Assembly: GCA_020627825.1 (NCBI GenBank)
Contig: JAHDGD010000005.1
Location: forward strand, 1-64,000
From: Saprospiraceae bacterium
Lineage (GTDB): Bacteria; Bacteroidota; Bacteroidia; Chitinophagales; Saprospiraceae
Direction of reading: 5' to 3'
DNA length: 64,000 bases
The position numbers were made by a program, and so were the translations under genes. Numbering within the stretch: the stretch's first letter is position 1; each line of letters opens with the position of its first letter. The notes under the pieces were generated by a model. The model had not been told where the DNA came from. It ran no database searches and saw nothing but the letters and a program-made list of their open reading frames with translations. This document shows positions 3,531 through 52,571 of this stretch, one piece after another.

Positions 3531-3553
3531 TTTTTGGGCTTCAAGCCCAAAAA
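3531..3553. repeat. Dispersed palindrome copy 1
   Basis: Perfect inverted repeat with 11-nt arms, TTTTTGGGCTT and its complement, around a single central C. It sits between the end of rpoN and the FKBP gene. On either strand the 3' flank is an A-tract, the reverse of an intrinsic terminator. Confidence 0.85.
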
Positions 3554-3556
3554 GCT

Positions 3557-5026
3557 TTATAATTCTTTCCGTAACCTTGCAACTGGAATATTCAATTGTT
3601 CTCTGTATTTCGCAACTGTTCTTCGCGCAATACTATACCCACTAACTTCTAGTAATTCTTTTAACTTTTCGTCAGAGTATGGCTTTCGTTTATTTTCTCG
3701 AGAAACAATATCTTTTAAAATATTTTTGACTTCAAGTGTTGATACTTCCTCTCCTTCTTGTGTCGTTACAGATTCGGAAAAGAACGATTTCAATTTACGA
3801 GTACCGAATTCTGTCTGCACAAATTTACTGTTCGCAACCCTTGAAACTGTTGAAATGTCCAAACCTGTAATTTCAGCTATATCTTTAAGTATCATTGGCT
3901 TAATTCTACGATCATCACCTGTCAAGAAAAAGTCATATTGAAATTGCATAATGGCATACATCGTAGAGTAAAGCGTATGATGCCTTTGTTTGATGGCGTC
4001 AATAAACCATTTAGCGGAATCGATCTTCTGCTTTATAAACATGACAGCATCTTTCTGCGATCTATTAGATTTATTACCTTTTTGTGCGTCTTTGTAGGTT
4101 TTAATCATCTCTACATACTGATCGTTTATTTTAAGATCAGGGGCATTTCGATTGTTTAGAGATAACTCAAGCTCTCCTTCTCTGTTTTTTATAAAGAAGT
4201 CAGGCAAAATATATTGGGTACGGGAAGAGGACACTTCTGAAACCGCCATCGCTGGTTTTGGGTTCAACCCAATAATAACATCAATAGCTTCTTTTAATTC
4301 CGATTCACTTAAGAAAAGATTTTTCTTAAGTCTTTCGTAATGTTTCTTGGTAAATTCAGAAAAATGATTTTCGATGATTTTCTGAGCGAAAATGTATTTT
4401 TTTTCTGGGTATCCTTCAATGTTTTTTAACTTGAGATCCATCTGGATACGCAGACATTCTTGTAAATCTCGAGCCGCAACTCCGGGAGGATCAAACTGTT
4501 GAATTTTTCCAAGTACCTCAAGAACGGTGTCTTTTTCTACTTCAATGTTTTGTGAAAAAAGTAAATCATCAATAATGGATTCAGGATCTCTTCTCAAATA
4601 CCCATCTTCATCAATAGAACCAATAATTTGTTCAGCAATAATATCTTGTTCTTCATTGGGAAGATCAAGCATACCTAGCTGCCGGTCAAGATAATCGTGA
4701 AAACTATTTTGAACTACAACTGGCGCTTTATAGTCTTCGTCAGAATGACTGAACGAATCCTTTAATTTATAACTTTGAGGATCATCTTCAATGTACTCGT
4801 TGATATAATCATCCAACTCAAACGCTTCCTCTTGCTGGTCCTGGTCATTGTCTAAATCGATCACTTCGGCATAATCATCGCCCTCCTCAAGAGCGGGATT
4901 GCTCTCCAGTTCTTCCTTGATCCTTTCTTCAAGTGAGGTTGTGGGGATCTGCAGGAGTTTCATAAGCTGTATCTGCTGGGGAGACAGCTTTTGCAACATT
5001 TTTTGACTAAGACTCTGCTTTAACAT
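3557..5026 (-). CDS. rpoN: RNA polymerase sigma-54 factor
   Basis: A 489-residue sigma-54. The Gln/Leu-rich activator-interacting region I is at the N-terminus (LSQKMLQKLSPQQIQLMKLLQIP), an acidic region II follows, then the core-binding domain and a C-terminal DNA-binding domain ending with the RpoN box ARRTVAKYRE (about residues 467-477), which reads the -24 promoter element. Region II is very rich in Asp/Glu. Transcription by this sigma needs AAA+ enhancer-binding proteins; none is encoded in the window. The gene is divergent from the aminopeptidase gene at 5215 and heads the minus-strand FKBP/yebC run. Confidence 0.97.
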   Translation of the reverse strand: MLKQSLSQKMLQKLSPQQIQLMKLLQIPTTSLEERIKEELESNPALEEGDDYAEVIDLDNDQDQQEEAFELDDYINEYIEDDPQSYKLKDSFSHSDEDYKAPVVVQNSFHDYLDRQLGMLDLPNEEQDIIAEQIIGSIDEDGYLRRDPESIIDDLLFSQNIEVEKDTVLEVLGKIQQFDPPGVAARDLQECLRIQMDLKLKNIEGYPEKKYIFAQKIIENHFSEFTKKHYERLKKNLFLSESELKEAIDVIIGLNPKPAMAVSEVSSSRTQYILPDFFIKNREGELELSLNNRNAPDLKINDQYVEMIKTYKDAQKGNKSNRSQKDAVMFIKQKIDSAKWFIDAIKQRHHTLYSTMYAIMQFQYDFFLTGDDRRIKPMILKDIAEITGLDISTVSRVANSKFVQTEFGTRKLKSFFSESVTTQEGEEVSTLEVKNILKDIVSRENKRKPYSDEKLKELLEVSGYSIARRTVAKYREQLNIPVARLRKEL

Positions 5027-5119
5027 CGGTTTAAGTTTACAAGCAAGTATTTATGTAACACGAATTACTTACTTAGCGTTCTAAAAAATTATATCTTTTT
5101 GGGTTTGTGTAGCTTTCGT

Positions 5120-5158
5120 TACTTTTGATGCTACATTGCTATGAGCAATGCAAATATA
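5120..5158. promoter_or_regulatory. Divergent rpoN / aminopeptidase promoter region
   Basis: TACTTTTG at 5120-5127 on the plus strand and TATATTTG on the minus strand (5151-5158) both fit the Bacteroidota -7 consensus TAnnTTTG and point at the aminopeptidase and rpoN genes respectively. Between them lies an inverted repeat, CATTGCT, 3 nt, AGCAATG (5134-5150), which would overlap the rpoN start point. The -33 elements are not convincing. Confidence 0.4.
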
Positions 5159-5214
5159 AAGAATATGAACAACATATTATAAAATTTTATAATATGTTTT
5201 ATTAAATTGGCTAT

Positions 5215-6993
5215 ATGGACACGGTAAACAATAAAATTAGTAAGCTTAGAACTCAATTAAAAGAAGCAGATCTTGACGCTTTCATTATTCCTTCTAGCGA
5301 TGCTCATCAAAGTGAATATGTTGCGGCTTTTGCCAATGTACGAGAATGGATTAGTGGATTTACGGGTTCAGCAGGTACCGTTATCATTACCCAAGATCAT
5401 GCAGGCTTATGGACAGATTCTAGATATTATTTGCAGGCAGAAACAGAGTTAAATGATTCTGAAATGTTCCTACATAAGATGGGAAACAGAGGAGTAATGA
5501 GTTGGATTTCATGGTTAAATGAGCAGTTTACAACTGACGCCAAAATTGCATTTAATGGTCAATTATTTACTAAAAGAGGGTATGAATTTATAAAGAAATC
5601 GCTTCATTCAAAAATGGAATTAATTACTGCTTTTGATCCCATTAACGCTATATGGGAGGATCGACCTGAACGACCCACAATGCCTATTTTCGAGCACCCT
5701 TTGCAATATGCGATCACATCTCGAAAAGAAAAAATAGAGGCTTTACGAAGTGGATTTATGGATAATGCAGATCGATATATTGTATCAGCATTGGATGATA
5801 TTGCATGGTTATTTAACTTAAGAGGTAATGACATCGACTTTAATCCAGTATTTTACGCATATGCAATCATCAGCAAGGAGGATGTCATTTTATTTTGTGA
5901 TGCCGATAAAATACCAACTTTACTTACGGAACAACTCCATCAAGATGGCATCGAGATAAAAGCGTATGATTTGTTTTTACCGTATGTCAATCACATTTCT
6001 AGTGAAGATAAAGTATTCATTGATCCTTCTGATATTAGTATTAGTTTATATAGGGCTGTAAACGCCCAAAAAGTGGAAGGAACAAATATTGTCCGTTCGT
6101 TGAAAGGAGTAAAAAATGAAGGGGAGTTATCACATGTTCGCAATGCTATGGAAAAAGACGGGGTTGCATTACTTCGTATGTATCGTTGGCTTGAGAAAGA
6201 GCTTGATGAGCATACAGTAACAGAAGCTGAAGTTTCGGATAAAATTCAATACTTCAGGTCTTTAATGGATGGCTATATAGGGGAATCTTTTCCACCAATT
6301 GTAGGGTATAAATCAAATGGAGCCATCATTCACTATAGACCAATGCATGGTCAATCTGCTTCTATTTCGAAAGAAGGAATGTTATTAATTGATAGTGGAG
6401 GACAATATATTGATGGTACAACCGATATCACTAGAACCATATGCTTCGGAACACCTACTAAAGAACAGAAAATAGCTTATACATTGGTGTTGAAAGGTAA
6501 AATCGCAATCGATCAGCTTATTTTCCCACAAGGAACTACAGGATATCAAATGGATATTTTAGCCAGAAGTGCGCTGTGGTCTGAAGGATTGGATTATGGA
6601 CATGGGACTGGACATGGAGTAGGATATGTACTCAATGTTCATGAAGGCCCTCAAGGTATTTCTCAAGTATTTAATCCGAAATCAAAACACCCTATGGAAG
6701 TGGGCATGATCACTTCCAATGAACCTGGATTTTACAAACAAGGAGGTTTTGGTATTCGAATTGAAAATTTAATTGCTACAAAATCGGTAAAAAATACTGA
6801 GTATGGACAGTTTTTGGGTTTCGAAACCCTTACTTTATTTCCTATTGCTACGAACCTTATTGATTCTACTTTACTAACAAGACCAGAAGTGAACTGGTTA
6901 AACAGTTATCATCAAAAGGTGCAAAAAAGACTCAGTCCACATTTAAATGAGGAAGAAAAAGGATGGTTAAAACAAAGATGTAAAGCGATATAA
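5215..6993 (+). CDS. Xaa-Pro aminopeptidase (M24B, aminopeptidase P family)
   Basis: A 592-residue cytoplasmic metallopeptidase that removes an N-terminal residue preceding proline. It has the long three-domain layout of the eukaryote-like aminopeptidase P: two creatinase-N-type domains, the pita-bread catalytic domain (about residues 310-530) and a C-terminal extension. All five metal ligands can be seen: two Asp in LIDSGGQYIDGTTDITRT, His in GHGTGHGVGY, Glu in SNEPGFY and Glu in GIRIENL. No signal peptide is present. It is monocistronic by context, divergent from rpoN. Confidence 0.93.
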   Translation: MDTVNNKISKLRTQLKEADLDAFIIPSSDAHQSEYVAAFANVREWISGFTGSAGTVIITQDHAGLWTDSRYYLQAETELNDSEMFLHKMGNRGVMSWISWLNEQFTTDAKIAFNGQLFTKRGYEFIKKSLHSKMELITAFDPINAIWEDRPERPTMPIFEHPLQYAITSRKEKIEALRSGFMDNADRYIVSALDDIAWLFNLRGNDIDFNPVFYAYAIISKEDVILFCDADKIPTLLTEQLHQDGIEIKAYDLFLPYVNHISSEDKVFIDPSDISISLYRAVNAQKVEGTNIVRSLKGVKNEGELSHVRNAMEKDGVALLRMYRWLEKELDEHTVTEAEVSDKIQYFRSLMDGYIGESFPPIVGYKSNGAIIHYRPMHGQSASISKEGMLLIDSGGQYIDGTTDITRTICFGTPTKEQKIAYTLVLKGKIAIDQLIFPQGTTGYQMDILARSALWSEGLDYGHGTGHGVGYVLNVHEGPQGISQVFNPKSKHPMEVGMITSNEPGFYKQGGFGIRIENLIATKSVKNTEYGQFLGFETLTLFPIATNLIDSTLLTRPEVNWLNSYHQKVQKRLSPHLNEEEKGWLKQRCKAI

Positions 6994-7058
6994 GAAAAGA
7001 AGAAAACAACAAAGCTTATAATGACCTTCGATAATTTCTTGTAAAGTATAGAATTGAT

Positions 7059-7066
7059 TATCTTTG
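7059..7066 (+). promoter_or_regulatory. -7 promoter box for the 42-residue membrane protein
   Basis: TATCTTTG matches the Bacteroidota TAnnTTTG box, 18 nt ahead of the ATG at 7085. A TTG at 7039-7041 lies 17 nt upstream of the box, an acceptable -33 spacing. This supports expression of the small gene that follows. Confidence 0.5.
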
Positions 7067-7084
7067 CGATTCAAATCGATACAT

Positions 7085-7213
7085 ATGGGACATCATACAG
7101 ATTATGGTAAAAAAGGGGCATACTTTCTAGGTTTTCTAGGGTTTGTTCTATTGATTATTATCTTATTGATATGGGTTTATTCTAAGAATTCAGAATTTCT
7201 TCCTATTCAATAA
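7085..7213 (+). CDS. Small single-pass membrane protein (42 aa)
   Basis: This short open frame encodes a His/Lys-containing N-terminus (MGHHTDYGKKGAYF), one hydrophobic helix of about 20 residues (LGFLGFVLLIIILLIWVYS) and a short tail. It begins with ATG and sits 18 nt after a good -7 box, which together make it a credible gene rather than chance. By the positive-inside rule the Lys-bearing N-terminus should be cytoplasmic. I do not recognise a family; small helices of this type are often accessory subunits of membrane complexes, but nothing near by suggests a partner. It lies between the aminopeptidase and nitroreductase genes. Confidence 0.6.
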   Translation: MGHHTDYGKKGAYFLGFLGFVLLIIILLIWVYSKNSEFLPIQ

Positions 7214-7270
7214 CCTCTTCTTACATTTTTCTTTTAGATGAACTTTCTGAAAGTTCCGCTCATATTGTAG

Positions 7271-7290
7271 TAAGTTAAAGGTTTAACTTA
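7271..7290. promoter_or_regulatory. Perfect inverted repeat upstream of the nitroreductase gene
   Basis: TAAGTTAAA, two bases GG, then TTTAACTTA: 9-nt arms, 24 nt ahead of the start codon. Size, symmetry and position suit an operator for a dimeric winged-helix repressor (MarR/HxlR type often control such flavoproteins). No regulator gene is adjacent, so the partner is unknown. Confidence 0.45.
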
Positions 7291-7314
7291 AAGCAATAGT
7301 TTAAAATATCATTT

Positions 7315-7914: not shown

Positions 7915-7977
7915 TGAACTTGAATCATTTCTTTTATTTTCATGTTAAGGTATTGATTCTATAAATATGTTTATCAA

Positions 7978-8721: not shown

Positions 8722-8746
8722 GCTAATTGTTGATGGGTTTCAATAA

Positions 8747-9888: not shown

Positions 9889-11169
9889 TTATCCGATTGT
9901 GAGATGCATAAAAGTAGAGGGGTCAAGAAATTCTTCAGCTGTATGTTGAACTTCTCTAGCTGTAATGGATTTAAAGGTTTCTATTGTGTGTAAGACGTCT
10001 TCTCTAGTTTCGCCATTCAGAACAGCTGATTTGATCAGTCGGATGGTTTGAAAAGGACCATCTACTGCTGTCAATAAATTCCCCAATATATAGTTTCTGT
10101 TCATTTCAAGTTCTTCTTTTTCAAGAGGAACCTGACGCAGTAATTCCATTTCTTTTACTATCTCATTCGAGGCATCCTTCACATGATGTGGACTAACCTC
10201 TGTACTGATATAAAAATATCCTTCACATAACAGCGTATCTAAGGAGCTGAAAACATTGTAGGTATAACCTTTTTCCTCTCGTATATTTTTCATTAATCTG
10301 GACCCAAAATATCCGCCCAAAACATTGTTGAGAAAGGTCATTTGGGCGTAAGCCTTATCTTTTCGATTACCAAATTTTCTACCAATACGGATTGCTGATT
10401 GATGTTGTTGCACAGCAGGAAATTTAAATTGATCGGTGTTAGTAAAAGAAGATTTTTTATAGTGTATTTTACGCCCTTTGGTGTAGCTCCATTGACCAAA
10501 GGCCTGGTTGATAGATTGTTCAACTGTATCATCATATTGCCCGCATAAGAATAATGTACACTCTTGATTTGTCATCATATCTTGGTGATATTCTACTAAT
10601 CTTTCTCGTGTTATTTGCTGGAAATTTTCTTTGGTTGAATTGTAACCATATACGGCATCTTCTCCGAATAATTTTTCTGTTAGAAGACGATAAGCAACGA
10701 GCTCATTTTTAGACTGATCAAGTTCAAGTTTTCTGCAATTATTGTCAATACATTTAAGAATTTCTTCTTCAGCAAAGAGGGGCTCAAGAATAATCTCGCT
10801 AAACTTCTGTATTAAGATGGGAAAAAACTTACTCAAACTCATCAATGTGAACGTAGTATAGTCGAGAGATGAACGTGAGGTATACGAAGCGCCATAGCGG
10901 TCAAAAAACTCATACAAAGTTTCCGCTGAATCTTTTTGAGTGCCTTCCTTTATAACGCCTGCGAATATTCTATTGAGCGATTTATGCAATTCATGATGTC
11001 GACCTCCTTTAAAAACGATGTCAAGTTTTACCAGTTCTTGTGAACCTTGTCTAATATAATAAACAGGCAGACCATTATCCAAGTTAAAGCTGGTAAATGG
11101 GCGTACTGGAATTTTAGTAATGGAATGGATTTTCGGTCCATTACGTCGTATTTTTTCGTCGATGTTCAC
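9889..11169 (-). CDS. M16 family protein lacking the zinc-binding motif (non-catalytic type)
   Basis: A 426-residue protein with two M16 half-domains. In the N-terminal half, where active members have HxxEH, it reads GGRHHELHKSLNRIFAGVI, without the motif, so zinc peptidase activity is not expected. The C-terminal half keeps the Arg/Tyr block GSRLMKNIREEKGYTYN that contacts substrate in active heterodimers. This is the pattern of the inactive subunit of two-subunit M16 peptidases. Unusually, no active-type M16 gene is next to it. The start codon is GTG at 11169. It could act as a partner of an M16 protein encoded elsewhere. Confidence 0.82.
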   Translation of the reverse strand: MNIDEKIRRNGPKIHSITKIPVRPFTSFNLDNGLPVYYIRQGSQELVKLDIVFKGGRHHELHKSLNRIFAGVIKEGTQKDSAETLYEFFDRYGASYTSRSSLDYTTFTLMSLSKFFPILIQKFSEIILEPLFAEEEILKCIDNNCRKLELDQSKNELVAYRLLTEKLFGEDAVYGYNSTKENFQQITRERLVEYHQDMMTNQECTLFLCGQYDDTVEQSINQAFGQWSYTKGRKIHYKKSSFTNTDQFKFPAVQQHQSAIRIGRKFGNRKDKAYAQMTFLNNVLGGYFGSRLMKNIREEKGYTYNVFSSLDTLLCEGYFYISTEVSPHHVKDASNEIVKEMELLRQVPLEKEELEMNRNYILGNLLTAVDGPFQTIRLIKSAVLNGETREDVLHTIETFKSITAREVQHTAEEFLDPSTFMHLTIG

Positions 11170-11209
11170 ATGTAAAACTTAGATCACTCGCAAAGGTATA
11201 CTTTTGTGT

Positions 11210-12265: not shown

Positions 12266-12697
12266 ATGAATACTACGAAAATACCAATCGTCTTTTGGAT
12301 TATTGCTGGAATTGGTCTAGTGTGGAATTTAATGGGGCTAGGAATGTTTGCTAGCGAATTAATGATATCACCTGATGTAATCGAAGCAATGGATGAAGCT
12401 CGAAGGAATTTATATGAAGATTCTCCTGCTTGGTTGAGCATTGTGTATGGAATCGCCACTATATGTGGAGTATTAGGATGCATTTTGTTGTTACTCCGTA
12501 AGAAATTAGCTGTCCCTATTTTACTGGTTTCTCTTGTTGCTGTATTAATTCAGATGGGGTATTCCATTTTGGCAACGAATGCAGTAGAGGTTTTCGGGAC
12601 AACTCAGGCGGTTATTATGCCTCTAGGAGTTATTGCAATCGGCGCATTTTTATTTTATTATGCAAGGAAATCAGCAGCTCTTGGATGGATAAAATAA
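12266..12697 (+). CDS. Hypothetical four-helix membrane protein
   Basis: A 143-residue protein with four predicted membrane helices; between helices one and two is an acidic loop containing SPDVIEAMDEARRNLYEDSPAW. The layout resembles small uncharacterised Bacteroidota membrane proteins; I cannot name a function. ATG at 12266 is taken as start; the in-frame TTG at 12260 adds only two residues. It overlaps the next gene by 13 nt, so the pair is probably translated together from one message. Its promoter region is shared with the divergent coiled-coil gene. Confidence 0.72.
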   Translation: MNTTKIPIVFWIIAGIGLVWNLMGLGMFASELMISPDVIEAMDEARRNLYEDSPAWLSIVYGIATICGVLGCILLLLRKKLAVPILLVSLVAVLIQMGYSILATNAVEVFGTTQAVIMPLGVIAIGAFLFYYARKSAALGWIK

Positions 12698-13077
12698 AAG
12701 ATAATATCTTTTTGATCGATGCAATAGGTGCATTGTGTTCTTTTTTATTTTTATTCGGTATACTAAAGATATGTCCAGAGATTTTGGGCTTTAAGCCCAA
12801 AATCTTTTACAAGCTTCTTCCCTTTGCTCTTGGATTTTTTGCTTACTCAATATGCAATCATTATTTAATTTCAAAACGTTGGCGATTTAGCCTTCGACTG
12901 GGAATTATTGCAAGTGCTAATGCAGCTTACGGATTGTATACGATGTATCTTGTGTTTGTGTCAAACGAACCCCAAGAAATGTATCTTTTGGCCCAAGTTT
13001 TAATTACTTTGGAATTCATTATTATCCTTGGAATCGTAATGCTTGAATTTTATTTTACCCGAGTTAATATGCATTAG
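12685..13077 (+). CDS. Hypothetical four-helix membrane protein containing a palindrome copy
   Basis: A 130-residue polytopic protein with about four hydrophobic helices and no recognised domain. Its start lies inside the end of the preceding membrane-protein gene (13-nt overlap), which argues for coupled translation. Codons 33-40 are made by the 23-bp palindrome at 12781-12803 and read ILGFKPKI, falling in the loop between helices one and two, where an insertion would be tolerated. The stop codon lies in the left arm of an 11-bp inverted repeat (13068-13078) that may mark a degenerate mobile element. Confidence 0.65.
   Translation: MDKIKDNIFLIDAIGALCSFLFLFGILKICPEILGFKPKIFYKLLPFALGFFAYSICNHYLISKRWRFSLRLGIIASANAAYGLYTMYLVFVSNEPQEMYLLAQVLITLEFIIILGIVMLEFYFTRVNMH
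12781..12803. repeat. Dispersed palindrome copy 2 (inside a CDS)
   Basis: Perfect inverted repeat, 11-nt arms ATTTTGGGCTT and complement around a central T. It is in frame inside the 130-residue membrane protein and encodes ILGFKPKI. Confidence 0.85.
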
Positions 13078-13220
13078 ACAATCTATTGCGGGCATAAACT
13101 ACATCAAAATCAATGCTTCGCTGGTGTTTTCAGATGAACCATAGCGATGCTATGATCAATCTTCCAAACCGCCCTAATTTTATAGTATTTTCAGTCCTCA
13201 TAACAAAGCTCTAATGCATA
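13068..13220. mobile_element. Possible MITE-like remnant with 11-bp terminal inverted repeats
   Basis: TATGCATTAGA at 13068-13078 is exactly repeated inverted at 13210-13220. The roughly 130 nt between hold a further hairpin (CATAGC, GAT, GCTATG at 13140-13154) and no open frame, and are less AT-rich than other gaps here. This is the shape of a small non-autonomous element or the remains of one, but no target-site duplication is clear. The left arm overlaps the last codons of the 12685-13077 gene. Confidence 0.3.
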
Positions 13221-13280
13221 ATTATGCTTATCAAAAATGAATTAACAAATCTAAGGGAGAATTATAAAGTTTAATGTGTA

Positions 13281-16820: not shown

Positions 16821-16846
16821 AGGTAAAGATCTTTAACAATAGGAAT

Positions 16847-16866
16847 TTTTGGGTTGGAACCCAAAA
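16847..16866. repeat. Dispersed palindrome copy 3
   Basis: Inverted repeat with 9-nt arms TTTTGGGTT and complement around GG. It is the GGGTT sub-type, in which both arms differ together from the GGGCTT sub-type. It lies 27 nt upstream of the dnaE start codon. Confidence 0.8.
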
Positions 16867-16947
16867 CATTTTAGAATTGCGAAGTTACAAAAGCTGTAGG
16901 ATGAAGGATAATATTTAGGAGCTTATTTTAAATGAGAAGAGAAAGAA

Positions 16948-16968
16948 CTTTTGGGTTTAACCCAAAAG
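16948..16968. repeat. Dispersed palindrome copy 4
   Basis: Perfect inverted repeat with 10-nt arms CTTTTGGGTT and complement around a central T, also GGGTT sub-type. It lies 81 nt from copy 3 in the dnaE/comM divergent region. Confidence 0.8.
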
Positions 16969-17136
16969 AAAAGGAACAACAACATCCTATCACATTAGAA
17001 ATTAATTTAATATGATCGCGCTTTTTTATTATGCTGAAAGTCTATTAAAATATAGTGTTTCAGAAAAATTTTAAAAAAACTTTTAAAAAATTGGAACGAA
17101 ATGAAGGGTTCATTACACTAATAAGAAACTAGAATT

Positions 17137-18702
17137 ATGTTAGTAAAAACATTTGCAAGTGCGGTGACTGGAGTAGAAGCTCACACGATTACGGTTGAAG
17201 TTAATGCGGGAGGTACTGTTACACCGAATAGGCCCTATTATCATTTGGTTGGATTGCCAGACTCTGCTGTAAAGGAAGGATTTCAACGCATCGAAACAGG
17301 GATTAAAAATAACGAGTACCGTATGCCAAGGACTAAACTTGTAGTAAATTTAGCACCAGCAGACATTAAAAAAGAAGGTTCTTCGTATGATTTACCCATT
17401 GCACTGGGAATCCTTGCAGCTTCAGGTCAATTGCCAGCATCAGCTGTTCCGAAACTAGAGCAGTATGTAATTTTAGGAGAGTTGTCTCTTGATGGTTCGC
17501 TAAGGCCTATAAAAGGTGCATTGCCTATAGCTATAAAAGCAAGAAAACAAGGTTTTAAGGGTGTTATTCTTCCTGCTCAAAATGCTCGAGAAGCTGCGAT
17601 TGTAAATAATCTTGAAGTGTATGGAATTCCTACCTTGAGTGATGCAGTAAAATTTTTTAATGGTTCCTTAAAATTGGAGCCCACTTTTGTTGATACACGA
17701 AATATTTTTCAACAAACATCAAGAAAATTTGATGTTGATTTTAGCGATGTCAAAGGCCAACAAAATATAAAACGGGCTCTAGAGTTAGCAGCGGCAGGAG
17801 GGCATAATGTGATATTAATAGGACCTCCTGGTGCAGGAAAAACTATGTTGGCAAGGCGATTACCTACTATTTTACCTCCTTTGAACTTAAAAGAAGCATT
17901 AGAAACTACAAAAATTCATTCGGTTGCAGGATTATTAAAAGAACATGATGCGTTAGTTCCACATCGTCCTTTTCGATCTCCTCATCATACCATAAGTGAC
18001 GTAGCGTTGGTAGGTGGTGGAAGTAATCCAAATCCTGGTGAGATTTCCTTAGCACATAATGGGGTATTGTTTTTAGATGAACTTCCCGAATTCAAGCGTT
18101 CCGTTTTGGAAGTTTTAAGACAACCTATGGAAGAACGAAAAGTAACAATTTCTCGAGCTCGGTTAACAGTCGATTATCCTGCTGGATTTATGTTGATTTC
18201 TTCTATGAATCCTTGTCCTTGTGGATACCATAATCATCCCGATAAAGAATGCTTGTGCCCTCCTGGTTCCGTAAAGAAATATCTCAATAAAATATCAGGT
18301 CCATTGTTGGACAGAATCGATCTACATGTAGAGGTGACACCCGTTTCAGTTGATGAGATCAATGATCCTCATAGTACTTCTGAAAAAAGTGCTGAAATTA
18401 TGGAACGTGTCATTCATGCTCGTATGATCCAAGAAAAGCGTTTTGAAGAGCTTGATCATATTTATTACAATGCACAAATGCCTTCAGCTATGGTAAAAAA
18501 AGTATGTCAGTTAAATCCGGAAGGCAGAGATTTACTTAAATTATCTATGGAAAAATTGCAACTTTCAGCACGCGCATATGATCGTATTCTGAAAGTATCA
18601 AGAACCATTGCTGATTTAGATGGAAAGAATGATATCTCTATTGAACATCTTAGTGAAGCCATTCACTATAGGAGCTTGGATCGAGATGACTGGGCTGGAT
18701 AA
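17137..18702 (+). CDS. comM: YifB/ComM family Mg-chelatase-like AAA+ ATPase
   Basis: A 521-residue AAA+ protein. An N-terminal Lon-substrate-like domain (LVGLPDSAVKEG, then NLAPADIKKEGSSYDLPIALGILAASG) precedes the ATPase with Walker A GPPGAGKT (229-236) and Walker B FLDELPEF (about 312-319). The four-Cys segment MNPCPCGYHNHPDKECLCPPG and a C-terminal helical lid follow. In naturally transformable bacteria ComM is a hexameric helicase that drives branch migration during integration of incoming DNA. The family is also widespread in non-competent bacteria, so competence should not be assumed here. It is divergent from dnaE. Confidence 0.93.
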   Translation: MLVKTFASAVTGVEAHTITVEVNAGGTVTPNRPYYHLVGLPDSAVKEGFQRIETGIKNNEYRMPRTKLVVNLAPADIKKEGSSYDLPIALGILAASGQLPASAVPKLEQYVILGELSLDGSLRPIKGALPIAIKARKQGFKGVILPAQNAREAAIVNNLEVYGIPTLSDAVKFFNGSLKLEPTFVDTRNIFQQTSRKFDVDFSDVKGQQNIKRALELAAAGGHNVILIGPPGAGKTMLARRLPTILPPLNLKEALETTKIHSVAGLLKEHDALVPHRPFRSPHHTISDVALVGGGSNPNPGEISLAHNGVLFLDELPEFKRSVLEVLRQPMEERKVTISRARLTVDYPAGFMLISSMNPCPCGYHNHPDKECLCPPGSVKKYLNKISGPLLDRIDLHVEVTPVSVDEINDPHSTSEKSAEIMERVIHARMIQEKRFEELDHIYYNAQMPSAMVKKVCQLNPEGRDLLKLSMEKLQLSARAYDRILKVSRTIADLDGKNDISIEHLSEAIHYRSLDRDDWAG

Positions 18703-24086: not shown

Positions 24087-24536
24087 ATGCCTTATAGTCC
24101 ATTACTTCATGCACACTCAGGTCTTCGCTGGATTGCCCTTTTATTTTTGCTTTTAACAGTAGCAATCAGTTTAAAAAATTGGTTGTCGAAATCTCAAGAA
24201 TGGAATAAACCTGCGACTACTATTTATAAATTAAATACGATATTCATCCATATTCAGTTTTTATTAGGGATCGTTTTACTTTTTATAAGCCCAAAAATGA
24301 ATTTTTCAGGAGATTGGAAAGCGAATGAAGTCATAAGGTTTTTCACCTTTCAACACATTCCATCTATGATTATCGCAGTAATTTTGATAACTGTTGCGGG
24401 CGCAGTTGCCAAAAGAAGAGCGAAAATTCCTTCAAGACATATGATTATTGCGATACTCAACTTGTTGGCCCTTATTCTTATCCTTACGAACATACCTTGG
24501 CCTGGAATAACAGATATTGGTGCTGGGTGGTATTAA
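24087..24536 (+). CDS. Conserved four-helix membrane protein with conserved histidines
   Basis: A 149-residue protein with four hydrophobic helices. His residues occur in LLHAHSGLRW, IFIHIQF and FTFQHIPSM, at positions within or next to helices, an arrangement suggestive of haem or metal coordination. I recognise the HSGLRW opening and RFFTFQH block from uncharacterised Bacteroidota proteins sometimes labelled cytochrome-like; no biochemical role is established to my knowledge. It has its own -7 box and is followed 2 nt after the stop by palindrome copy 5. Confidence 0.65.
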   Translation: MPYSPLLHAHSGLRWIALLFLLLTVAISLKNWLSKSQEWNKPATTIYKLNTIFIHIQFLLGIVLLFISPKMNFSGDWKANEVIRFFTFQHIPSMIIAVILITVAGAVAKRRAKIPSRHMIIAILNLLALILILTNIPWPGITDIGAGWY

Positions 24537-24538: not shown

Positions 24539-24557
24539 TTTGGGCTTAAAGCCCAAA
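24539..24557. repeat. Dispersed palindrome copy 5
   Basis: Perfect inverted repeat, 9-nt arms TTTGGGCTT and complement around a central A. It starts 3 nt after a stop codon, but the 3' side is an A-tract, so it does not fit an intrinsic terminator. Confidence 0.85.
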
Positions 24558-24697: not shown

Positions 24698-26641
24698 ATG
24701 TACAATTATATAATTTCATTCTTAATCTGTTTTATTACAGTAGGGGCTTTCGCCCAAAAAACAGATCCAGTTTTATTTACTGTAGAAGGAAATCCCGTTC
24801 ATGTTTCCGAGTTCGATTACATTTATTCAAAGAATACAGGAAAAAATACAGATTACAGTCTGAAAAGCCTCGAAGAATATCTTGATTTATATGTTAAGTT
24901 TAAACTTAAAGTTCAAAAGGCAAAAGAACTCAAACTCGACACCATTCCTAGTCTTCAAAAAGAATTGGAAGGATATAGACAACAACTTGCAAAATCTTAT
25001 CTTACTGATAAAGAAGTTACTAATCGATTAGTGGAAGAAGTATATAATCGATCCAAAACAGATGTCAAAGTTTCTCATATTCTCATCAACTTGAAGGAAA
25101 CTGCTAATTCAAAGGCGGAGAACGAAGCCCGAACGAAGATTGACGATATTTACAAAAAGATAAAAAGTGGCTTATCTTTTGATGAAGCCGTTCAACAATT
25201 TTCAGAAGATAAAATCTCTGCTGCTTCAGGTGGTTCATTACCCTTTTTAAACGCCATGTTTCCTGCTGGATTCTATGAGCTTGAAAATGCGGCTTATGCG
25301 CTTAAAAAAGGTGAAGTTTCTGAGCCTTTACGTACAAAATTAGGTTTTCATATCATTCGTTTGGATGAAGTGAGAGAAGCACGCGGAGAAATGGAGGTTG
25401 CACATATATTAATACGGAAAGAGAAGATTCGTCAGAAAAAATCAGATGGCGAAGAACGGATTAATGCAATTTATGACAGATTGGAAGCTGGGGAAGATTT
25501 TGCTACTCTTGCAAGTACATTAAGTGAGGATAAATCTTCAGCACGAAATGATGGGTATCTTGGGTTTTTTGGCATCAATAAATACGAACAAGCATTTGAA
25601 GATGCTGCATTTAGTCTTACAACGGATAACACTTATTCTAAACCTATAAAAACTTCAGTTGGTTGGCACATCATTAAAAGAATATCAAAAAAAGAAGCTC
25701 CTATTTATGAAAATGCTAAAAAAAGAATCAAGGCAAAAGTCATAAAAGATCCGCGACAAAAAATGGCGAAAAAAGCTTTAATCCAACAAATAAAAGTAGA
25801 GTCTGATTTCAAAGAAAGCAGAGAAGCCGTTTCAAAATTTGTTAATAGTTTGGATAAATCTTTCTTCTCATATAAGTGGAAACCAGAAGAAACATTTGAT
25901 GACGATCTGTTATCTTTCGGAAATACTTCGTACAGTTTAGCAGATTTTATGGAGTATGCAAGAGCCAATACCAGAGCTCGATTAAGAATGGATGAGCTGA
26001 GTTTAGAAGATGGTGTAAATAAATTATATAGAGATTTTGTAGAAGAGAAAGCTATAGAATATGAAGAAAAGCAACTCGTTTATAAGTATCCTGAATTTAA
26101 AGCCATTATGCGCGAATACGAAGAGGGAATTATGTTATTCGAGGTAACTAAAATGAATGTGTGGGATAAAGCATCTCAGGACTCTGTTGGATTGCAAAAG
26201 TTTTACACTGAAAACGCAGGTCGCTATACTTGGAAAGAACGTGCAAAAACGCAAACGTTTACATTGAATACGACGGATGAGAAATTGGCCGCAAAATTTA
26301 TGAAGAAAGCTAAAAGAAAATCACCGGAGTGGCTGAAAGATAAATTTGGGGATATCTTTTCAGTCGAAGAGCAAGTATATGAAAGAGGAAGCAGAGAAGT
26401 TTCAGGCATTAAATTTTCAAAAAAGTCAATTTCTGTTCCTGAAATAAATGAGAAGAAATCAATAATTACATTTAAAAAGATTGTTGAGATTATACCGTCT
26501 GCACAAAAAACGCTTGATGAGGCGAGAGGATATATTGAAGCAGATTACCAAGATCAATTGGAAAAAAGATGGATTAGTAAATTGCGTAATCAATATAAAG
26601 TAGAGATCAACGAAGACGTATTAAAAAGTATGGTTAAATAG
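24698..26641 (+). CDS. Periplasmic peptidyl-prolyl isomerase with two parvulin domains
   Basis: A 647-residue exported protein. The signal peptide (MYNYIISFLICFITVGAFAQ) is probably cut at or near AFA-Q. Two parvulin (rotamase) domains follow at about 125-230 and 240-345; both show HILI, an SEDK block, GG/GYLGF and a closing GFHIIRLDE or GWHIIKRIS. The C-terminal 300 residues are helical and lack a recognised domain. It would help fold outer-membrane proteins in the periplasm together with the SurA-like protein encoded two genes on. The next gene starts immediately after its stop codon. Confidence 0.88.
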   Translation: MYNYIISFLICFITVGAFAQKTDPVLFTVEGNPVHVSEFDYIYSKNTGKNTDYSLKSLEEYLDLYVKFKLKVQKAKELKLDTIPSLQKELEGYRQQLAKSYLTDKEVTNRLVEEVYNRSKTDVKVSHILINLKETANSKAENEARTKIDDIYKKIKSGLSFDEAVQQFSEDKISAASGGSLPFLNAMFPAGFYELENAAYALKKGEVSEPLRTKLGFHIIRLDEVREARGEMEVAHILIRKEKIRQKKSDGEERINAIYDRLEAGEDFATLASTLSEDKSSARNDGYLGFFGINKYEQAFEDAAFSLTTDNTYSKPIKTSVGWHIIKRISKKEAPIYENAKKRIKAKVIKDPRQKMAKKALIQQIKVESDFKESREAVSKFVNSLDKSFFSYKWKPEETFDDDLLSFGNTSYSLADFMEYARANTRARLRMDELSLEDGVNKLYRDFVEEKAIEYEEKQLVYKYPEFKAIMREYEEGIMLFEVTKMNVWDKASQDSVGLQKFYTENAGRYTWKERAKTQTFTLNTTDEKLAAKFMKKAKRKSPEWLKDKFGDIFSVEEQVYERGSREVSGIKFSKKSISVPEINEKKSIITFKKIVEIIPSAQKTLDEARGYIEADYQDQLEKRWISKLRNQYKVEINEDVLKSMVK

Positions 26642-27467: not shown

Positions 27468-28841
27468 ATGAGAAGGATATATAAAATAAGCTTCATTGTA
27501 CTTTTTTTAAGTGCGATTACTTTTGGGCTTAAAGCCCAAAAATTAGTAGATAAAGTAGTTGCTCAAGTAGGAAGTGAATATATTTTGTTAAGTGATGTGG
27601 AAAAACAATTTTCATACTTACAAGAATCATCAGGAAGTATAAGTGACGAAGAACGTTGTTCAATTCTTGAAGGATTAATGGCTCAAAAAATAATGGTTGA
27701 CCAAGCAAAGCTTGATAGTATTGTTGTTTTGGATGCAGAAGTTGAACAACAACTTGATTTTCGTATAGAATCCATTCTGCGTCAAATGAATGGAGACACA
27801 GAATTTTTCGAAGAATATTATGGACAGACTGTACCAGAGGTAAAAGAATGGATGCGTATAAATATGAAAGAAATGCTTCTAGCAGAAAGAATGAGAGGGT
27901 CATTATTCGAGGGCATTACGATTACGCCAAGTGAAACAAGAGCTTTTTTCGAAAATATTCCAACTGATTCTTTGCCTTATTTTAACGCTGAAGTGGAAGT
28001 GGCTGAAATCGTTTTGGTTCCTCAAGTAAATGAAGTTGAAAAGTCAAAAGCATATGAATCATCTATGGCAGTTTACAAGGAACTAATGGAAAATAATGGA
28101 GACTTTGCGGCTTTGGCTAAAAAATTTAGTGATGATCCAGGTTCAAAAAGATTGGGGGGCGATTTAGGATGGCAAACTAGAGGAACATTTGTGCCAGAAT
28201 TCGATGCAATTGCATATACATTAAAAAAGGATGAAATAAGTGAGCCGTTTGAATCTCCTTTCGGGTATCACATAGTTCAGTTATTGGATAGAAGAGGAAA
28301 TACGGTACATACGAGGCATATTCTATTCAAACCAGAATTAACATTCGATGATATTCAGAAAACGAAAGAGAAATTAGAAGCAATAAAAGAAGAAGTACTT
28401 GTTGATAGCATCAGCTTTCAGAAAGCCATTAAAAAGTATTCTAGTAAAGACGAAGAAAGTTTTAATAATAATGGGCGTTTAACTAATCCAGTTAATGGCA
28501 CTACGTTTTTCGAAACAGCGGATTTACCTCCTGATATTTACTTTGCAATTGAAGGTATAGATGTCGAAGGATTAACAGAAGTTATAGAGTATACTACTCC
28601 AAGGGGCGAAACACAATTTAGAATAATAAAATTATTATCGAGAACTCGTCCACATAAAGCAAATCTTAAACAAGATTATGCGAAAATTCAATTCTATGCC
28701 AAGGAAAATAAAAAGAACGAATACTTTGGTAAATGGGTTCAAGAAAAGGCAGCAAAAAAGTATGTACAGCTTGATGAGAGGTTTGCTTCTTGCCCCAACT
28801 TAATGACATGGGGAAAAGAAAATCAGTCAGCTGACAATTAG
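27468..28841 (+). CDS. surA: SurA-type periplasmic chaperone/peptidyl-prolyl isomerase
   Basis: A 457-residue exported protein. After the signal peptide the mature protein begins KLVDKVVAQVGSEYILLSDVEKQ, the SurA N-domain signature. A canonical parvulin domain covers about residues 175-280 (DPGSKRLGGDLGW, then PFGYHIVQLLDRRG), and a weaker second one follows from HTRHILF. It escorts unfolded outer-membrane proteins to the BAM complex. The signal-peptide end is encoded by palindrome copy 6 (FGLKAQK), which makes the end of the signal peptide unusual by having a Lys before the Ala of the cleavage site. It is the last gene of the operon, closed by a terminator. Confidence 0.9.
   Translation: MRRIYKISFIVLFLSAITFGLKAQKLVDKVVAQVGSEYILLSDVEKQFSYLQESSGSISDEERCSILEGLMAQKIMVDQAKLDSIVVLDAEVEQQLDFRIESILRQMNGDTEFFEEYYGQTVPEVKEWMRINMKEMLLAERMRGSLFEGITITPSETRAFFENIPTDSLPYFNAEVEVAEIVLVPQVNEVEKSKAYESSMAVYKELMENNGDFAALAKKFSDDPGSKRLGGDLGWQTRGTFVPEFDAIAYTLKKDEISEPFESPFGYHIVQLLDRRGNTVHTRHILFKPELTFDDIQKTKEKLEAIKEEVLVDSISFQKAIKKYSSKDEESFNNNGRLTNPVNGTTFFETADLPPDIYFAIEGIDVEGLTEVIEYTTPRGETQFRIIKLLSRTRPHKANLKQDYAKIQFYAKENKKNEYFGKWVQEKAAKKYVQLDERFASCPNLMTWGKENQSADN
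27521..27541. repeat. Dispersed palindrome copy 6 (inside surA)
   Basis: Perfect inverted repeat, 10-nt arms TTTTGGGCTT and complement around A. It is in frame at the signal-peptide cleavage site of the SurA-like protein, in a different reading phase from copies 2 and 8. Confidence 0.85.
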
Positions 28842-33361: not shown

Positions 33362-33907
33362 ATGCTTGAAGCGCTAATTTCTTCTAAAACAAGAGTCAAG
33401 TTACTCTTAAAGTTTTTTCTGAATTCTAAGTCTGAAGGTTATCTACGAGGTCTTGAACAAGAGTTTGGCGATTCTACTAACTCCATTAGATTAGAGCTTA
33501 ATAGATTCGAAGAAGCAGGAATGCTTAAAACAGAATCGAGTGGGAATAAGAAATTCTTTAAAGCCAATACCGATCACCCACTTTTTAACGAAGTCCACAA
33601 TATTCTCAGAAAGTATATAGGAATTGATAAAATCATTGAGAAAGTGATCAATCGATTAGGAGAAGTTGAACATGTCTATCTGGTAGGATCTTTAAGCAAA
33701 GGGATAGACAATAAAATAATTGATTTAATATTTTTTGGAGAGATTGATAAAGAATATCTTGTGCGCTTGATTGATCGAGTAGAAGAGCATTTATCAAGAA
33801 AAATAAGATACATTACGTATTCTTGTAAGGATATAGAAGAAATTTTGGATCAATATCCAGAAGCTTTGCTTTTATGGTCAAAAAAAGACGAGTCAAATGA
33901 AGCTTAA
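33362..33907 (+). CDS. Winged-helix regulator with nucleotidyltransferase-like domain
   Basis: About 181 residues. The N-terminal winged helix (MLEALISSKTRVKLLLKFFL, then LEQEFGDSTNSIRLELNRFE) is followed by a degenerate MNT-type nucleotidyltransferase fold: the GS motif is present (YLVGSLSKGI), but the paired catalytic Asp pattern is weak (IIDLIFFGEID). Proteins of this type stand at the head of exopolysaccharide clusters in several Bacteroidota, directly before a UpxY gene, and are thought to be regulators of the locus. It overlaps the next gene by 11 nt. ATG at 33362 is preferred because the alternative TTG is part of a -7 box. Confidence 0.75.
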   Translation: MLEALISSKTRVKLLLKFFLNSKSEGYLRGLEQEFGDSTNSIRLELNRFEEAGMLKTESSGNKKFFKANTDHPLFNEVHNILRKYIGIDKIIEKVINRLGEVEHVYLVGSLSKGIDNKIIDLIFFGEIDKEYLVRLIDRVEEHLSRKIRYITYSCKDIEEILDQYPEALLLWSKKDESNEA

Positions 33908-34439
33908 GGAGAGGAAAGACCACATATGTGCATCTGAGAAAAAATGGTTTGCTGTATACACGAGGTATAGAGCAGAAAAGTATGTTACCGATAAATTAAC
34001 AAAGAAGGGTATTACAAATTATGTTCCCTTATTGAATTTTACAAGAGTATATAAAAGTAAAAAGCGCGAAGTGCAATTGCCTTTGATCTCCTGTTATGTT
34101 TTTGTATATATCACAAAAGAGGAATACGTAAAAGTTCTCCAAACAGAGAATGTCATCTCATTTTTAAAGATACGTGGTACTTTAATTTCTATTCCTCAAG
34201 AAGAAATTGACATTATGAAGTGGGTAGTTGGAGAGGAGATTTTAGAGAATGTCCATAATGGTCCGCTAGAAAAAGGTCAAAGAGTAGAAATAATTTCAGG
34301 TAATTTGACAGGAATTAAAGGAACTGTGGTGAAAAGAAAAAGTAAGAAATATGTTCAAGTAGCATTGGATAGTTTAGGCTATACACTTGAATTGAATGTG
34401 TCTGAAGACATGTTACAGAAGGTACATTCTTTAGCATAA
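33897..34439 (+). CDS. UpxY/RfaH-type NusG paralogue (transcription antiterminator)
   Basis: A 180-residue specialised NusG protein. The NGN domain begins KKWFAVYTRYRAEKYVTDKL and includes VPLLNFTRVYKSKKREVQLPLISCYVFVYI; the KOW motif is GQRVEIISGNLTGIKGTVV near residues 125-145. Specialised NusG proteins bind elongating RNA polymerase at an ops-like element and prevent termination across long polysaccharide operons, as for UpxY in Bacteroides and RfaH in enterobacteria. Its position at the head of a locus of over 29 kb is exactly that expected. A candidate recruitment element lies about 80 nt downstream. Confidence 0.9.
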   Translation: MKLKERKDHICASEKKWFAVYTRYRAEKYVTDKLTKKGITNYVPLLNFTRVYKSKKREVQLPLISCYVFVYITKEEYVKVLQTENVISFLKIRGTLISIPQEEIDIMKWVVGEEILENVHNGPLEKGQRVEIISGNLTGIKGTVVKRKSKKYVQVALDSLGYTLELNVSEDMLQKVHSLA

Positions 34440-34441: not shown

Positions 34442-34465
34442 TTTTTTGGGCTCGAGCCCAAAAAA
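34442..34465. repeat. Dispersed palindrome copy 7
   Basis: Perfect inverted repeat of 24 bp with no spacer; the arm is TTTTTTGGGCTC. The inner T of other copies is C here and the other arm carries the matching G. It lies just after the UpxY-type gene stop codon. Confidence 0.85.
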
Positions 34466-39301: not shown

Positions 39302-39331
39302 TTAAAATTGGCTTTCGCCAAAAAGGGCAGT

Positions 39332-50148: not shown

Positions 50149-51463
50149 CCTCAGTATTAGCATACCCAATTTCTGTTCCAACGAGTTTGAATATACCGTT
50201 AACTGTATATTTAAGACTTTTTTAGGCCTACATTATACTTGTACTATTAATAACGAGAATAAAGATACAGTTGTAAAATTCAATGAAAACTCATTGGTTA
50301 TTAAAAATTCATTTTTTAAAAGTGGAACTGGACCAATACGATATTCAACTGAAGATCTTCCTAAGCCTGTGCATGCCAATTTGAAAGTAGGATCTGTTTC
50401 TAAAAATTATGTTTCTTTATATGGTATTGATAAAATCGAAGGCACTAAAAATAATATTACTATTCACTCTGATTTTATAGCTGGTACATTTTTTATGCTT
50501 TCTAGATGGGAAGAATTTATTTCTGAACAAAAGGATGATCATCATAGGGCTTCATGTTCTTCTTCTGCAACTGCACAATATATTAGAAGGCCAATTGTAA
50601 ATGAATATGTTGAGATTATTTGGGCATGTCTCTTAGAATTGGGATTTAAGGGAAATCGAAAGAATAGAAATTTTGAAATTATACCAACTCATGATGTTGA
50701 TCATCCTTATAAATACTATACAATAAGAAATAAAATTTCGGGTTTCTTCAAGTCTATTCTTACATTTAAAACCGATGATTGGAAATCAAGTTTTTCTGCA
50801 ATTGTAAATGATACCGACCCTTTTGATACATATGATTTGCTTTTAGAAAATGCTGAAAAAATAGGTGCTAAAGCAGAGTTTAATTTCATGAATGCATCAA
50901 AGTCAAAATTTGATGATGGGTATAATATTGAACTCCCCAAAATTCAGAATCTTATTTATAAAATTAAAAGAGCAGGACACATTTTCGGGTTTCATCCATC
51001 TTATAATACAAGTAATAATATTCAATTGTTTAATGCAGAAATAGATGGATTACGAAGTAAAGTTGGATTTCCAGTAATACAAGGAAGACAGCATTATTTG
51101 AGATTTCAAGTACCTCAAACATGGCGAATTTGGTCTAATGCTAAATTAGAGATTGATAGCTCGATGGGATATGCAGATAAAGCTGGTTTTCGATGTGGCG
51201 TTTGTTATGATTTTCCTGTATACGATCTAGTAGATAGAAAGCCTCTTTCTTTATTAGAAAGACCTTTAATTGCAATGGAAGTTACACTAATGCAATACGA
51301 AAAATTAAATCCTCAAGATGCGATTAAAGTTGTTCAAGAATTAAAAAATGAAGTAAAAAAATACCAAGGGAATTTTGTCTTTTTATGGCATAATTCTTCT
51401 TTTAATTCTCCAAAATGGAATGATTATTTTCCAGTATTTGAGGAAATGTATTCATTAAATTAA
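50141..51463 (+). CDS. Polysaccharide deacetylase family (carbohydrate esterase 4-like) protein
   Basis: A 440-residue protein. The C-terminal half carries the NodB-like fold: IIPTHDVDHPYKYY (Asp-Asp/His motif 1), GFHPSYNT (motif 2, HxxxH-like) and LWHNSSFNSPKW near the end. The N-terminal half is a beta-rich region found with this type in Bacteroidota (I believe DUF7033). It may de-N-acetylate or otherwise hydrolyse part of the polysaccharide; the absence of a signal peptide argues for action on a cytoplasmic precursor. It overlaps the FkbM gene by 8 nt. Confidence 0.75.
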   Translation: MLNLSISIPNFCSNEFEYTVNCIFKTFLGLHYTCTINNENKDTVVKFNENSLVIKNSFFKSGTGPIRYSTEDLPKPVHANLKVGSVSKNYVSLYGIDKIEGTKNNITIHSDFIAGTFFMLSRWEEFISEQKDDHHRASCSSSATAQYIRRPIVNEYVEIIWACLLELGFKGNRKNRNFEIIPTHDVDHPYKYYTIRNKISGFFKSILTFKTDDWKSSFSAIVNDTDPFDTYDLLLENAEKIGAKAEFNFMNASKSKFDDGYNIELPKIQNLIYKIKRAGHIFGFHPSYNTSNNIQLFNAEIDGLRSKVGFPVIQGRQHYLRFQVPQTWRIWSNAKLEIDSSMGYADKAGFRCGVCYDFPVYDLVDRKPLSLLERPLIAMEVTLMQYEKLNPQDAIKVVQELKNEVKKYQGNFVFLWHNSSFNSPKWNDYFPVFEEMYSLN

Positions 51464-51473
51464 TGTATTTAAA

Positions 51474-52571
51474 ATGAAGATTATTAATGTTGTTGGTGCT
51501 CGTCCCAATTTTATAAAAATTGCCCCAATACATAGAGCGTTGAATAAAATTGATTCTGTAGAATCTTTGATTGTACATACAGGTCAACACTATGATGAAC
51601 GTATGAGTGATATTTTTTTTAATCAACTTGAATTACCGAAACCAGATTTTTATTTAGGTATAGGAGGTGGTTCTCATACCCACCAGAAAGCAAATGTAAT
51701 GCTTGCTTTTGAAAAAATCTGCAATAGTGAAAAACCTGATGTTGTTTTAGTAGTTGGAGATGTAAATGCCACAGCAGCTTGTAGTATTACCGCTATAAAA
51801 ATGGGTATTCGCACGGTTCATGTTGAGGCCGGATTAAGAAGTGGAGACAGGGATATGCCAGAGGAAATAAATCGAATTATTACAGATGCTATTTGTGATG
51901 ATTTATTTATTACAGAGCATAGCGGACTTATAAACCTTGCCAAGGAGGGAGTTCCTGATTCTAAAGTTCATTTTGTAGGGAATGTAATGATAGATTCTCT
52001 TGTTTATTTTCGCAAGAAAGCATCTTATGATGGTATATTAAATACTTTGGGCTTAAAGCCCAAAAAATATATTCTTATGACCATGCATAGACCTTCAAAT
52101 GTTGACAATGTTGATAGTTTAAATAAGATCTTGCAAATCATAAGAAATGCTTGTGCCCATAATAATGTTGTTTTTCCTGTTCATCCGAGAACAGAAAATA
52201 ATTTAAAGAAATTTAATTTGTGGGATAAATTAAGTACCATAAATGGCCTTCATATTATGGGACCTCAAGGGTATCTACAATTTTTAAATTTAATGGATAA
52301 TGCATTAATGATTATTACTGACTCTGGTGGTATTCAAGAAGAAACAACGTACTTACAAGTTCCATGCATTACGTTTAGATCTTCTACTGAACGTCCGATC
52401 ACCGTTGAATTAGGAACAAATGTTTTGATTAGTGAATTGGATGTAAAAGAGGTTGACCTTCAGGTGCAATCCATTCTCAATGGAGAACATAAAACAGGTG
52501 TTATTCCGCCTTTATGGGATGGAGATGCCGCAACTCGAATTGCAAAAATTTTAGTAAAAAAATATAATTAA
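51474..52571 (+). CDS. wecB: UDP-N-acetylglucosamine 2-epimerase (non-hydrolysing)
   Basis: A 365-residue epimerase of the WecB family: NVVGARPNFIKIAPIHRAL, HTGQHYDERMSDIFFNQLEL, VVGDVNATAACSITAIKMG, EAGLRSGDRDMPEEINRIITD and the later DSGGIQEETTYLQVPCITFR. It interconverts UDP-GlcNAc and UDP-ManNAc. As a WbpI-like epimerase is already present, this one probably supplies a second ManNAc-type precursor. Palindrome copy 8 lies in frame at LGLKPKK, in a surface loop before ILMTMHRPSNVD. It is 10 nt after the deacetylase and 6 nt ahead of cysN. Confidence 0.92.
   Translation: MKIINVVGARPNFIKIAPIHRALNKIDSVESLIVHTGQHYDERMSDIFFNQLELPKPDFYLGIGGGSHTHQKANVMLAFEKICNSEKPDVVLVVGDVNATAACSITAIKMGIRTVHVEAGLRSGDRDMPEEINRIITDAICDDLFITEHSGLINLAKEGVPDSKVHFVGNVMIDSLVYFRKKASYDGILNTLGLKPKKYILMTMHRPSNVDNVDSLNKILQIIRNACAHNNVVFPVHPRTENNLKKFNLWDKLSTINGLHIMGPQGYLQFLNLMDNALMIITDSGGIQEETTYLQVPCITFRSSTERPITVELGTNVLISELDVKEVDLQVQSILNGEHKTGVIPPLWDGDAATRIAKILVKKYN
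52046..52064. repeat. Dispersed palindrome copy 8 (inside wecB)
   Basis: Perfect inverted repeat, 9-nt arms TTTGGGCTT and complement around A. It encodes LGLKPK within the epimerase; GLKPKEY-like sequences occur naturally here in homologues, so an origin by convergence cannot be excluded for this copy. Confidence 0.7.

Follow-up and report, generated by a model that had tools for sequence, protein, structure and literature searches.

Dispersed palindromes of a Saprospiraceae genome as the two-strand form of a polar stem-loop unit, a candidate genus-specific recognition signal

What maintains a family of short palindromes along a bacterial chromosome, and is the palindrome itself the element that is maintained? 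The question is raised by the window studied here, i.e., the whole stretch of 64,000 nucleotides at positions 1 to 64,000 (forward strand) of contig JAHDGD010000005.1 from a Saprospiraceae bacterium (assembly GCA_020627825.1). An earlier note, made from the letters of this window, had described eight inverted repeats (dyads) with closely similar arms at 3531, 12781, 16847, 16948, 24539, 27521, 34442 and 52046. It read the joint change of their arms as selection on the dyad, acting through an RNA hairpin or a dimeric-protein site, and expected hundreds of copies per genome. All eight are present as described. They belong to a family that is dispersed in hundreds of copies across coding and intergenic DNA. 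The basic element is, however, not a palindrome but the polar unit 5'-TTT(T)GGGC-NNNA-GCC(C)-3', and the two-sided palindromes are this unit present on both strands at once.

Copies were counted in the host genome of the window (G000), a metagenome-assembled genome of 4.46 Mb in 297 contigs that is 96% complete. The nearest relatives of a protein from the window come from Saprospiraceae metagenome-assembled genomes, by which the host probably belongs to this family as well. As controls, the respective motifs were read backwards. Per-site statistics refer to 1.29 Mb of this genome (29%) and to a home-made gene caller. For comparison we used three further members of the same genus, i.e., the half-complete sister genome G001 (2.1 Mb) as well as G002 and G003. 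The dyad pattern TTTGGG-N{2,10}-CCCAAA occurs 454 times in the host genome vs 2 times for the backwards pattern, which bears out the expected hundreds of copies and places the count above chance. The polar unit is matched 521 times (251 and 270 by strand), with a reversed control of 0/0. Since reversed controls give 0-2 matches, chance or composition is ruled out as the cause. Among all 6-mer arms tested in 765 kb, strong enrichment as close inverted repeats is found only for TTTGGG (81 observed vs 0.8 expected), TTGGGC (63 vs 0.1) and overlapping arms. Within the window, the family provides 8 of the 10 longest inverted repeats (arm of at least 8, loop of at most 8, at least 3 G/C per arm).

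The polarity of the element is seen when its inner stem is viewed alone. That is, the unit is a 4-bp G/C hairpin with TTT on the 5' side, and its wider form reads 5'-TTT(T)GGG[C/G/T]-loop-[G/C/A]CC(C)-3', where the loop has 3-5 nt and usually ends in A. A flanking TTT (left) and/or AAA (right) accompanies 108/108 GGGC-N4-GCCC sites. Where the unit is one-sided, loop position 4 on the TTT strand is A in 52/52 sites (loops GAAA 27, GTAA 9, CCCA 6, GGAA 2, and others), and TTT stands at the 5' foot of all 44 GNAA hairpins. Presence of the unit on both strands at once forces the T...A loops (TCGA, TTWAA) of the two-sided form. Thus, the dyads of the earlier note are real, while its view of the palindrome as the unit has to be revised, since each dyad is the double-strand version of an asymmetric polar stem-loop with 5' TTT.

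The unit tolerates little deviation. Perfect strand matches to TTTGGGCNNNAGCCC number 155, compared to 0-2 for each single-base arm change, and one-mismatch copies of the unit are almost absent; an optional last C and, in part, the loop A are the deviations that occur. The fourth pair covaries between C-G, G-C and T-A, whereas A-T is not used. Here, the pair following GGG is complementary in 62/64 sites with spacing 6 and 53/55 sites with spacing 7 vs 51 and 42 after shuffling, i.e., the arms indeed vary together. The DNA fold energy of the unit ranges from -4.1 to -8.2 kcal/mol. Lone arms are not enriched when dyads and near-dyads are masked (TTTTGGGC: 58 vs 47 expected), which rules out a lone half-site signal. 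Beyond the arms, a weak preference for A(-6)T(-5) is observed that is symmetric, in register with TTTGGG, unpaired, and alike in intergenic and coding copies.

With regard to genes, the 147 dyads of the 1.29 Mb divide into 82 intergenic ones and 65 inside called genes. Their density is 1.10 per kb in convergent gaps, 0.44 in tandem gaps, 0.49 in divergent gaps and 0.057 in genes, and many sites lie only tens of bases from stop codons. Coding dyads are frequently found in signal peptides (FGLKAQK, FWAQAQK) or encode LGLKPK-type peptides. Spacing along the genome is near random (coefficient of variation, CV, of 0.89), which rules out an even spacing. A small excess of 80-126 bp intervals between neighbouring dyads (6/89) was also seen. 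One-sided units are less frequent than dyads in intergenic DNA (17 vs 82). Inside genes, 46 of them are antisense and 22 sense, in tandem gaps 5 are sense and 5 antisense, and unit pairs within contigs are on the same strand in 43 and on opposite strands in 41 cases. The two-sided form is dominant even in tandem gaps, and its density in divergent gaps is equal. A coupling of the unit strand to GC skew is not clear (35 vs 50). Overall, the strand of the unit relative to genes matters little.

The window contains the following copies, where two-sided units are given without strand.

3531..3553, no strand: two-sided unit TTTTTGGGC-TTCAA-GCCCAAAAA, just 3' of the rpoN stop (sigma-54, 3557-4963, minus strand)
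4257..4270, plus strand: one-sided T-A form TTTGGGT-TCA-ACCC, a weaker candidate, antisense inside rpoN
10341..10354, plus strand: one-sided unit TTTGGGC-GTAA-GCC, 14-base form
12779..12805, no strand: two-sided unit AGATTTTGGGC-TTTAA-GCCCAAAATCT with 13-bp arms, between called genes
16847..16866, no strand: two-sided unit TTTTGGGT-TGGA-ACCCAAAA, fourth pair T-A, 27 bp upstream of dnaE within the divergent gap that separates it from comM
16948..16968, no strand: two-sided unit CTTTTGGGT-TTA-ACCCAAAAG, in the dnaE/comM divergent gap
24539..24557, no strand: two-sided unit TTTGGGC-TTAAA-GCCCAAA, just past the open reading frame (ORF) 24087-24536 (plus strand), not retained at the syntenic G001 locus
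24744..24758, minus strand: one-sided unit TTTGGGC-GAAA-GCCC, antisense to a signal peptide (GAFAQK), retained in G001
27521..27541, no strand: two-sided unit in a SurA-like peptidyl-prolyl isomerase (PPIase) gene, encoding TFGLKAQK where the signal peptide ends, with an identical copy in G001 and none in G003
34442..34465, no strand: two-sided unit TTTTTTGGGC-TCGA-GCCCAAAAAA, directly after a NusG-domain gene (33897-34439)
39310..39323, minus strand: TTTTGGC-GAAA-GCC, a form with a shorter stem, in the intergenic gap before 39332; the aligned place in G001 reads TTTGGGG-TTAAA-CCCCAAA
52046..52064, no strand: two-sided unit in a UDP-GlcNAc 2-epimerase gene, encoding LGLKPKK

Mapping the eight dyads relative to genes, as the earlier note had proposed, thus places two of them inside conserved genes (SurA-like, 27521; UDP-GlcNAc 2-epimerase, 52046). 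The 12779 dyad is spanned by an ORF (12685-13077, 130 aa) that the gene caller did not report and that matches no Pfam family. The unit at 34442 has a G001 counterpart in the same place, GGGGTTAACCCC, i.e., GGGG-TTAA-CCCC. In the divergent gap between dnaE and the ComM-family gene (16821-17136), two dyads are about 100 bp apart; that the ComM-family gene (17137-18702) adjoins two units is an anecdote only, given how widespread this gene family is.

Next, we compared orthologous places. For 13 coding sites, the identity between G000 and G001 is 94.1% in the arms, 74% in the core and 55% in the flanks, compared to 61% for whole genes. Cores are swapped in place, with changes of amino acids, which is observed at C2:16013 (CTCGAG to TTTAA), at C18:12684 (in a protein that is only 34% identical), at C246:79702 and, from TCGA to GAAA, at C107:28547. 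A dyad that is broken in G001 often leaves a one-sided unit, e.g., TTTGGGC-GGCA-GCCC at C246:3985 and TTTGGGC-GAAA-GCCC at C107:28547, which agrees with the unit as derived from G000 alone. Intergenic dyads are retained where the surrounding DNA is no longer alignable, and at C224:83370 two sites stand opposite two sites. Retention is incomplete, i.e., the window copy at 24539 and a few others are without G001 counterpart.

Most homologues of the UDP-GlcNAc 2-epimerase (52046) are without dyad and align without insertion, and several dyad-free homologues in G003 likewise have the same length. Since dyad-free homologues show no gap, the copies arise by substitution and not by insertion. The peptide GAFAQ is encoded as GGG GCT TTC GCC CAA in 6/6 cases (0.01 expected). 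As a side observation, GLKAQ (10/10), GAFAQ (6/6) and internal AYAQ (12/14) each use one codon set that matches the unit, where codon usage predicts far fewer; these counts from the 1.29 Mb include the sites at 24744-24758 and 27521-27541.

Arms at 94% vs about 61% gene identity, in-place core swaps and amino acids that change while the dyad stays support the selection on the dyad claimed before. The earlier note had named a chance-level count, or missing positional conservation and covariation, as grounds to abandon the family; none of these was found. At orthologous places, copies are held by strong selection on both sequence and pairing that is close to all-or-none; from the perfect/one-mismatch ratio, a scaled selection 2Nes of about 4-6 follows as a rough estimate that is not fitted. 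Retention despite protein change suggests a genome-wide recognition signal for the cell.

The taxonomic range was surveyed in 289 Bacteroidia genomes (G000 and 288 others sampled), where the unit has at most 12 matches in any of the others. Across the four members of the genus, the GNAA form numbers 151, 152, 75 and 51, compared to 0-5 elsewhere. TTTGGG-N{2,10}-CCCAAA is found 174 times in G001, 52 times in G003, 25 times in G002 and 0-37 times in other genera. Among the matches listed for other genera, the cores are unrelated and at the level of chance, which rules out a wider distribution of the family. Furthermore, nearly all of the dyad loci checked in G002 and G003 are coding sites that coincide with peptide motifs, which speaks against reading these matches as family members. 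Given both observations, the dyad form characterises mainly G000 and G001, while the one-sided unit is genus-wide. Two forms of the motif have no exact match in IMG/VR, by which a virus-borne element was ruled out, and no described Bacteroidota hairpin or palindrome signal was found in open-access full texts.

Other repeats were met on the way. Five other Bacteroidia genomes (G133, G091, G083, G123, G355) carry 3-12 copies of TTTGGGCTAAAGCCC / TTTGGGCTTTAGCCC, which may be a separate family of short repeats. Window positions 13053-13223 hold a dispersed repeat of about 155 bp that is unrelated to the hairpin unit and possibly resembles a miniature inverted-repeat transposable element (MITE); about a dozen more partial or full copies (72-91% identity) lie in the 1.29 Mb, with matches in G002, G001 and G003. 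A dispersed A/T-rich sequence of about 60 bp (17057-17139), directly upstream of the comM start, has about a dozen more G000 copies (78-95% identity) and many matches in G002.

Which process would maintain such a unit? We tentatively favour, at a probability somewhat short of even, a selection-maintained strand-specific recognition signal, i.e., a polar genus-specific stem-loop with the palindromes as its two-strand form. The signal would be recognised on either strand once this is single-stranded and folded into the hairpin, presumably by one sequence- and structure-specific protein. A unit on both strands would make whichever strand becomes single-stranded recognisable, and since either strand may be exposed, intergenic DNA would drift to the perfect dyad, in line with the 82 dyads vs 17 one-sided units found there. 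The process may be genome self-recognition in DNA uptake or recombination, similar to Chi or to the DNA uptake sequences (DUS) and uptake signal sequences (USS). The fuller version, which we consider possible but more doubtful, is a single-stranded DNA hairpin 'self' word that arose from point substitution at hundreds of loci and was doubled where proteins allow, with a candidate reader protein acting in uptake, recombination or replication. To our knowledge, a strict sequence, a covarying stem-loop and an origin by substitution are not found together in any other genomic signal. Several points weigh against the recognition signal: base pairing does not account for the A(-6)T(-5) preference beyond the arms, which hints at contacts with the duplex; the density of about 1 per 7 kb is below that of known uptake sequences; and the single-stranded step is deduced from strand indifference and pairing.

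The strongest rival would be that a dimeric protein of the nucleoid or of chromosome organisation binds the dyads as duplex sites, which are maintained genome-wide and comparable to those of Noc, SlmA or MatP. The A(-6)T(-5) preference, being symmetric, unpaired and shared by intergenic and coding copies, is consistent with such contacts, as is the intergenic enrichment with its maximum in convergent gaps (1.10/kb vs 0.44-0.49). Still, a dimer site appears rather unlikely given an arm spacing that varies from 4 to 7 bp, the covarying fourth pair, the tie between the TTT side and the loop-final A of the same strand in 52/52 one-sided sites, and a near-random genome spacing. Thus, the dimeric-protein site of the earlier note retains the weak A/T preference in its favour but conflicts with spacing, covariation and the TTT/loop-final-A coupling. 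Active correction could equally leave few one-mismatch copies and symmetric core changes. This is expected if biased repair or gene conversion, be it HIP1-like, linked to methylation or due to template switching in hairpins, writes and repairs the motif without per-site function, and a model of this kind was proposed for HIP1 (PMC4390886). We consider it improbable, since template switching or hairpin correction alone does not explain the unpaired invariant TTT of one-sided units, and amino-acid changes would be costly without benefit.

Similarly low is the probability we assign to RNA stem-loops with a 5' U-tract and a GNRA-like tetraloop that serve as stability, processing or protein-binding elements in transcripts. 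GAAA, GTAA and GGAA as the commonest one-sided loops and the proximity of many sites to stop codons would fit, but genic units are mostly antisense (46 vs 22), tandem gaps are balanced (5 vs 5), the two-sided form dominates even there with the same density in divergent gaps, and Rfam yields 0 matches above gathering score in the window. This strand-indifferent placement makes the mRNA hairpin of the earlier note unlikely. Its remark that T before and A after the dyad are opposite to an intrinsic terminator is correct: the hairpin is T-preceded and the two-sided form A-followed on both strands, a polarity that rules out terminators, and true A...T terminators are separate from the unit. Mobile short palindromes (repetitive extragenic palindromic, REP, elements with RAYT, RPE or MITE-like) come to mind given the high copy number and dispersed hairpins with a short 5' tag. 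They are largely refuted and very improbable, since there is no gap in dyad-free homologues, almost no decayed copy and none in IMG/VR, and the RAYT gene (Y1_Tnp, PF01797) has 0 matches in the 96% complete G000, the genus member that was searched, with five control genomes positive. The lack of Y1_Tnp in G000 and of insertion, i.e., dyad-free homologues of the same length, rules out REP/RAYT and speaks against the RAYT/REP-type transposase considered before.

Genome-wide short signals such as Chi, uptake sequences, HIP1 and matS reveal chromosome-reading machineries. The hairpin unit is unusually clean in this respect, with almost no decayed copies, a covarying pair, orthologous loop exchange and protein bent to keep the word. 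With its 16 defined bases, it can serve as bait in the search for a reader protein, and it is a natural experiment on selection writing a word into coding DNA. The GLKAQ, GAFAQ, AYAQ, LGLKPK and LGSSPK peptides of these proteomes are, in turn, partly by-products of the DNA signal.

Among known systems, Chi is strict, polar and recognised on one strand. The hairpin unit is likewise strict and polar, but shows no orientation coherence in the local proxies that the fragmented assembly offers (G-rich strand 35/50, same-contig pairs 43/41). REPs, which are tagged by GTAG or CGTC and may also lie inside genes (PMC3733652), share the hairpin with short 5' tag and the hundreds of copies; here, the tag is TTT (44/44 GNAA units), copies are not inserted and there is no Y1 transposase. 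HIP1 of cyanobacteria is a dyad over-represented throughout the genome with unsettled function (PMC4390886). As for HIP1, the palindrome here is over-represented both inside and between genes and is not inserted, with one-base deviations at the motif edge as reported there. In contrast to the fixed 8-mer of HIP1, the element here is a polar stem-loop with interrupted arms, and the dyad density per kb in coding DNA is lower than in intergenic DNA by nearly 10-fold or more. The likeness to DUS (Neisseria) and USS (Pasteurellaceae) covers a short strict word in hundreds of genic and intergenic copies, a taxon-specific dialect and inverted pairs between genes. As in uptake sequences, the word is over-represented in both orientations (251/270 vs control 0/0), taxon-specific and retained at orthologous places; for uptake sequences, a one-orientation bias within reading frames has been reported (PMC2346458, PMC3630211). 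Compared to DUS/USS, the density here is lower, lone arms are not enriched and no uptake system or receptor is known, while the unit itself is a hairpin with a covarying pair and a variable loop.

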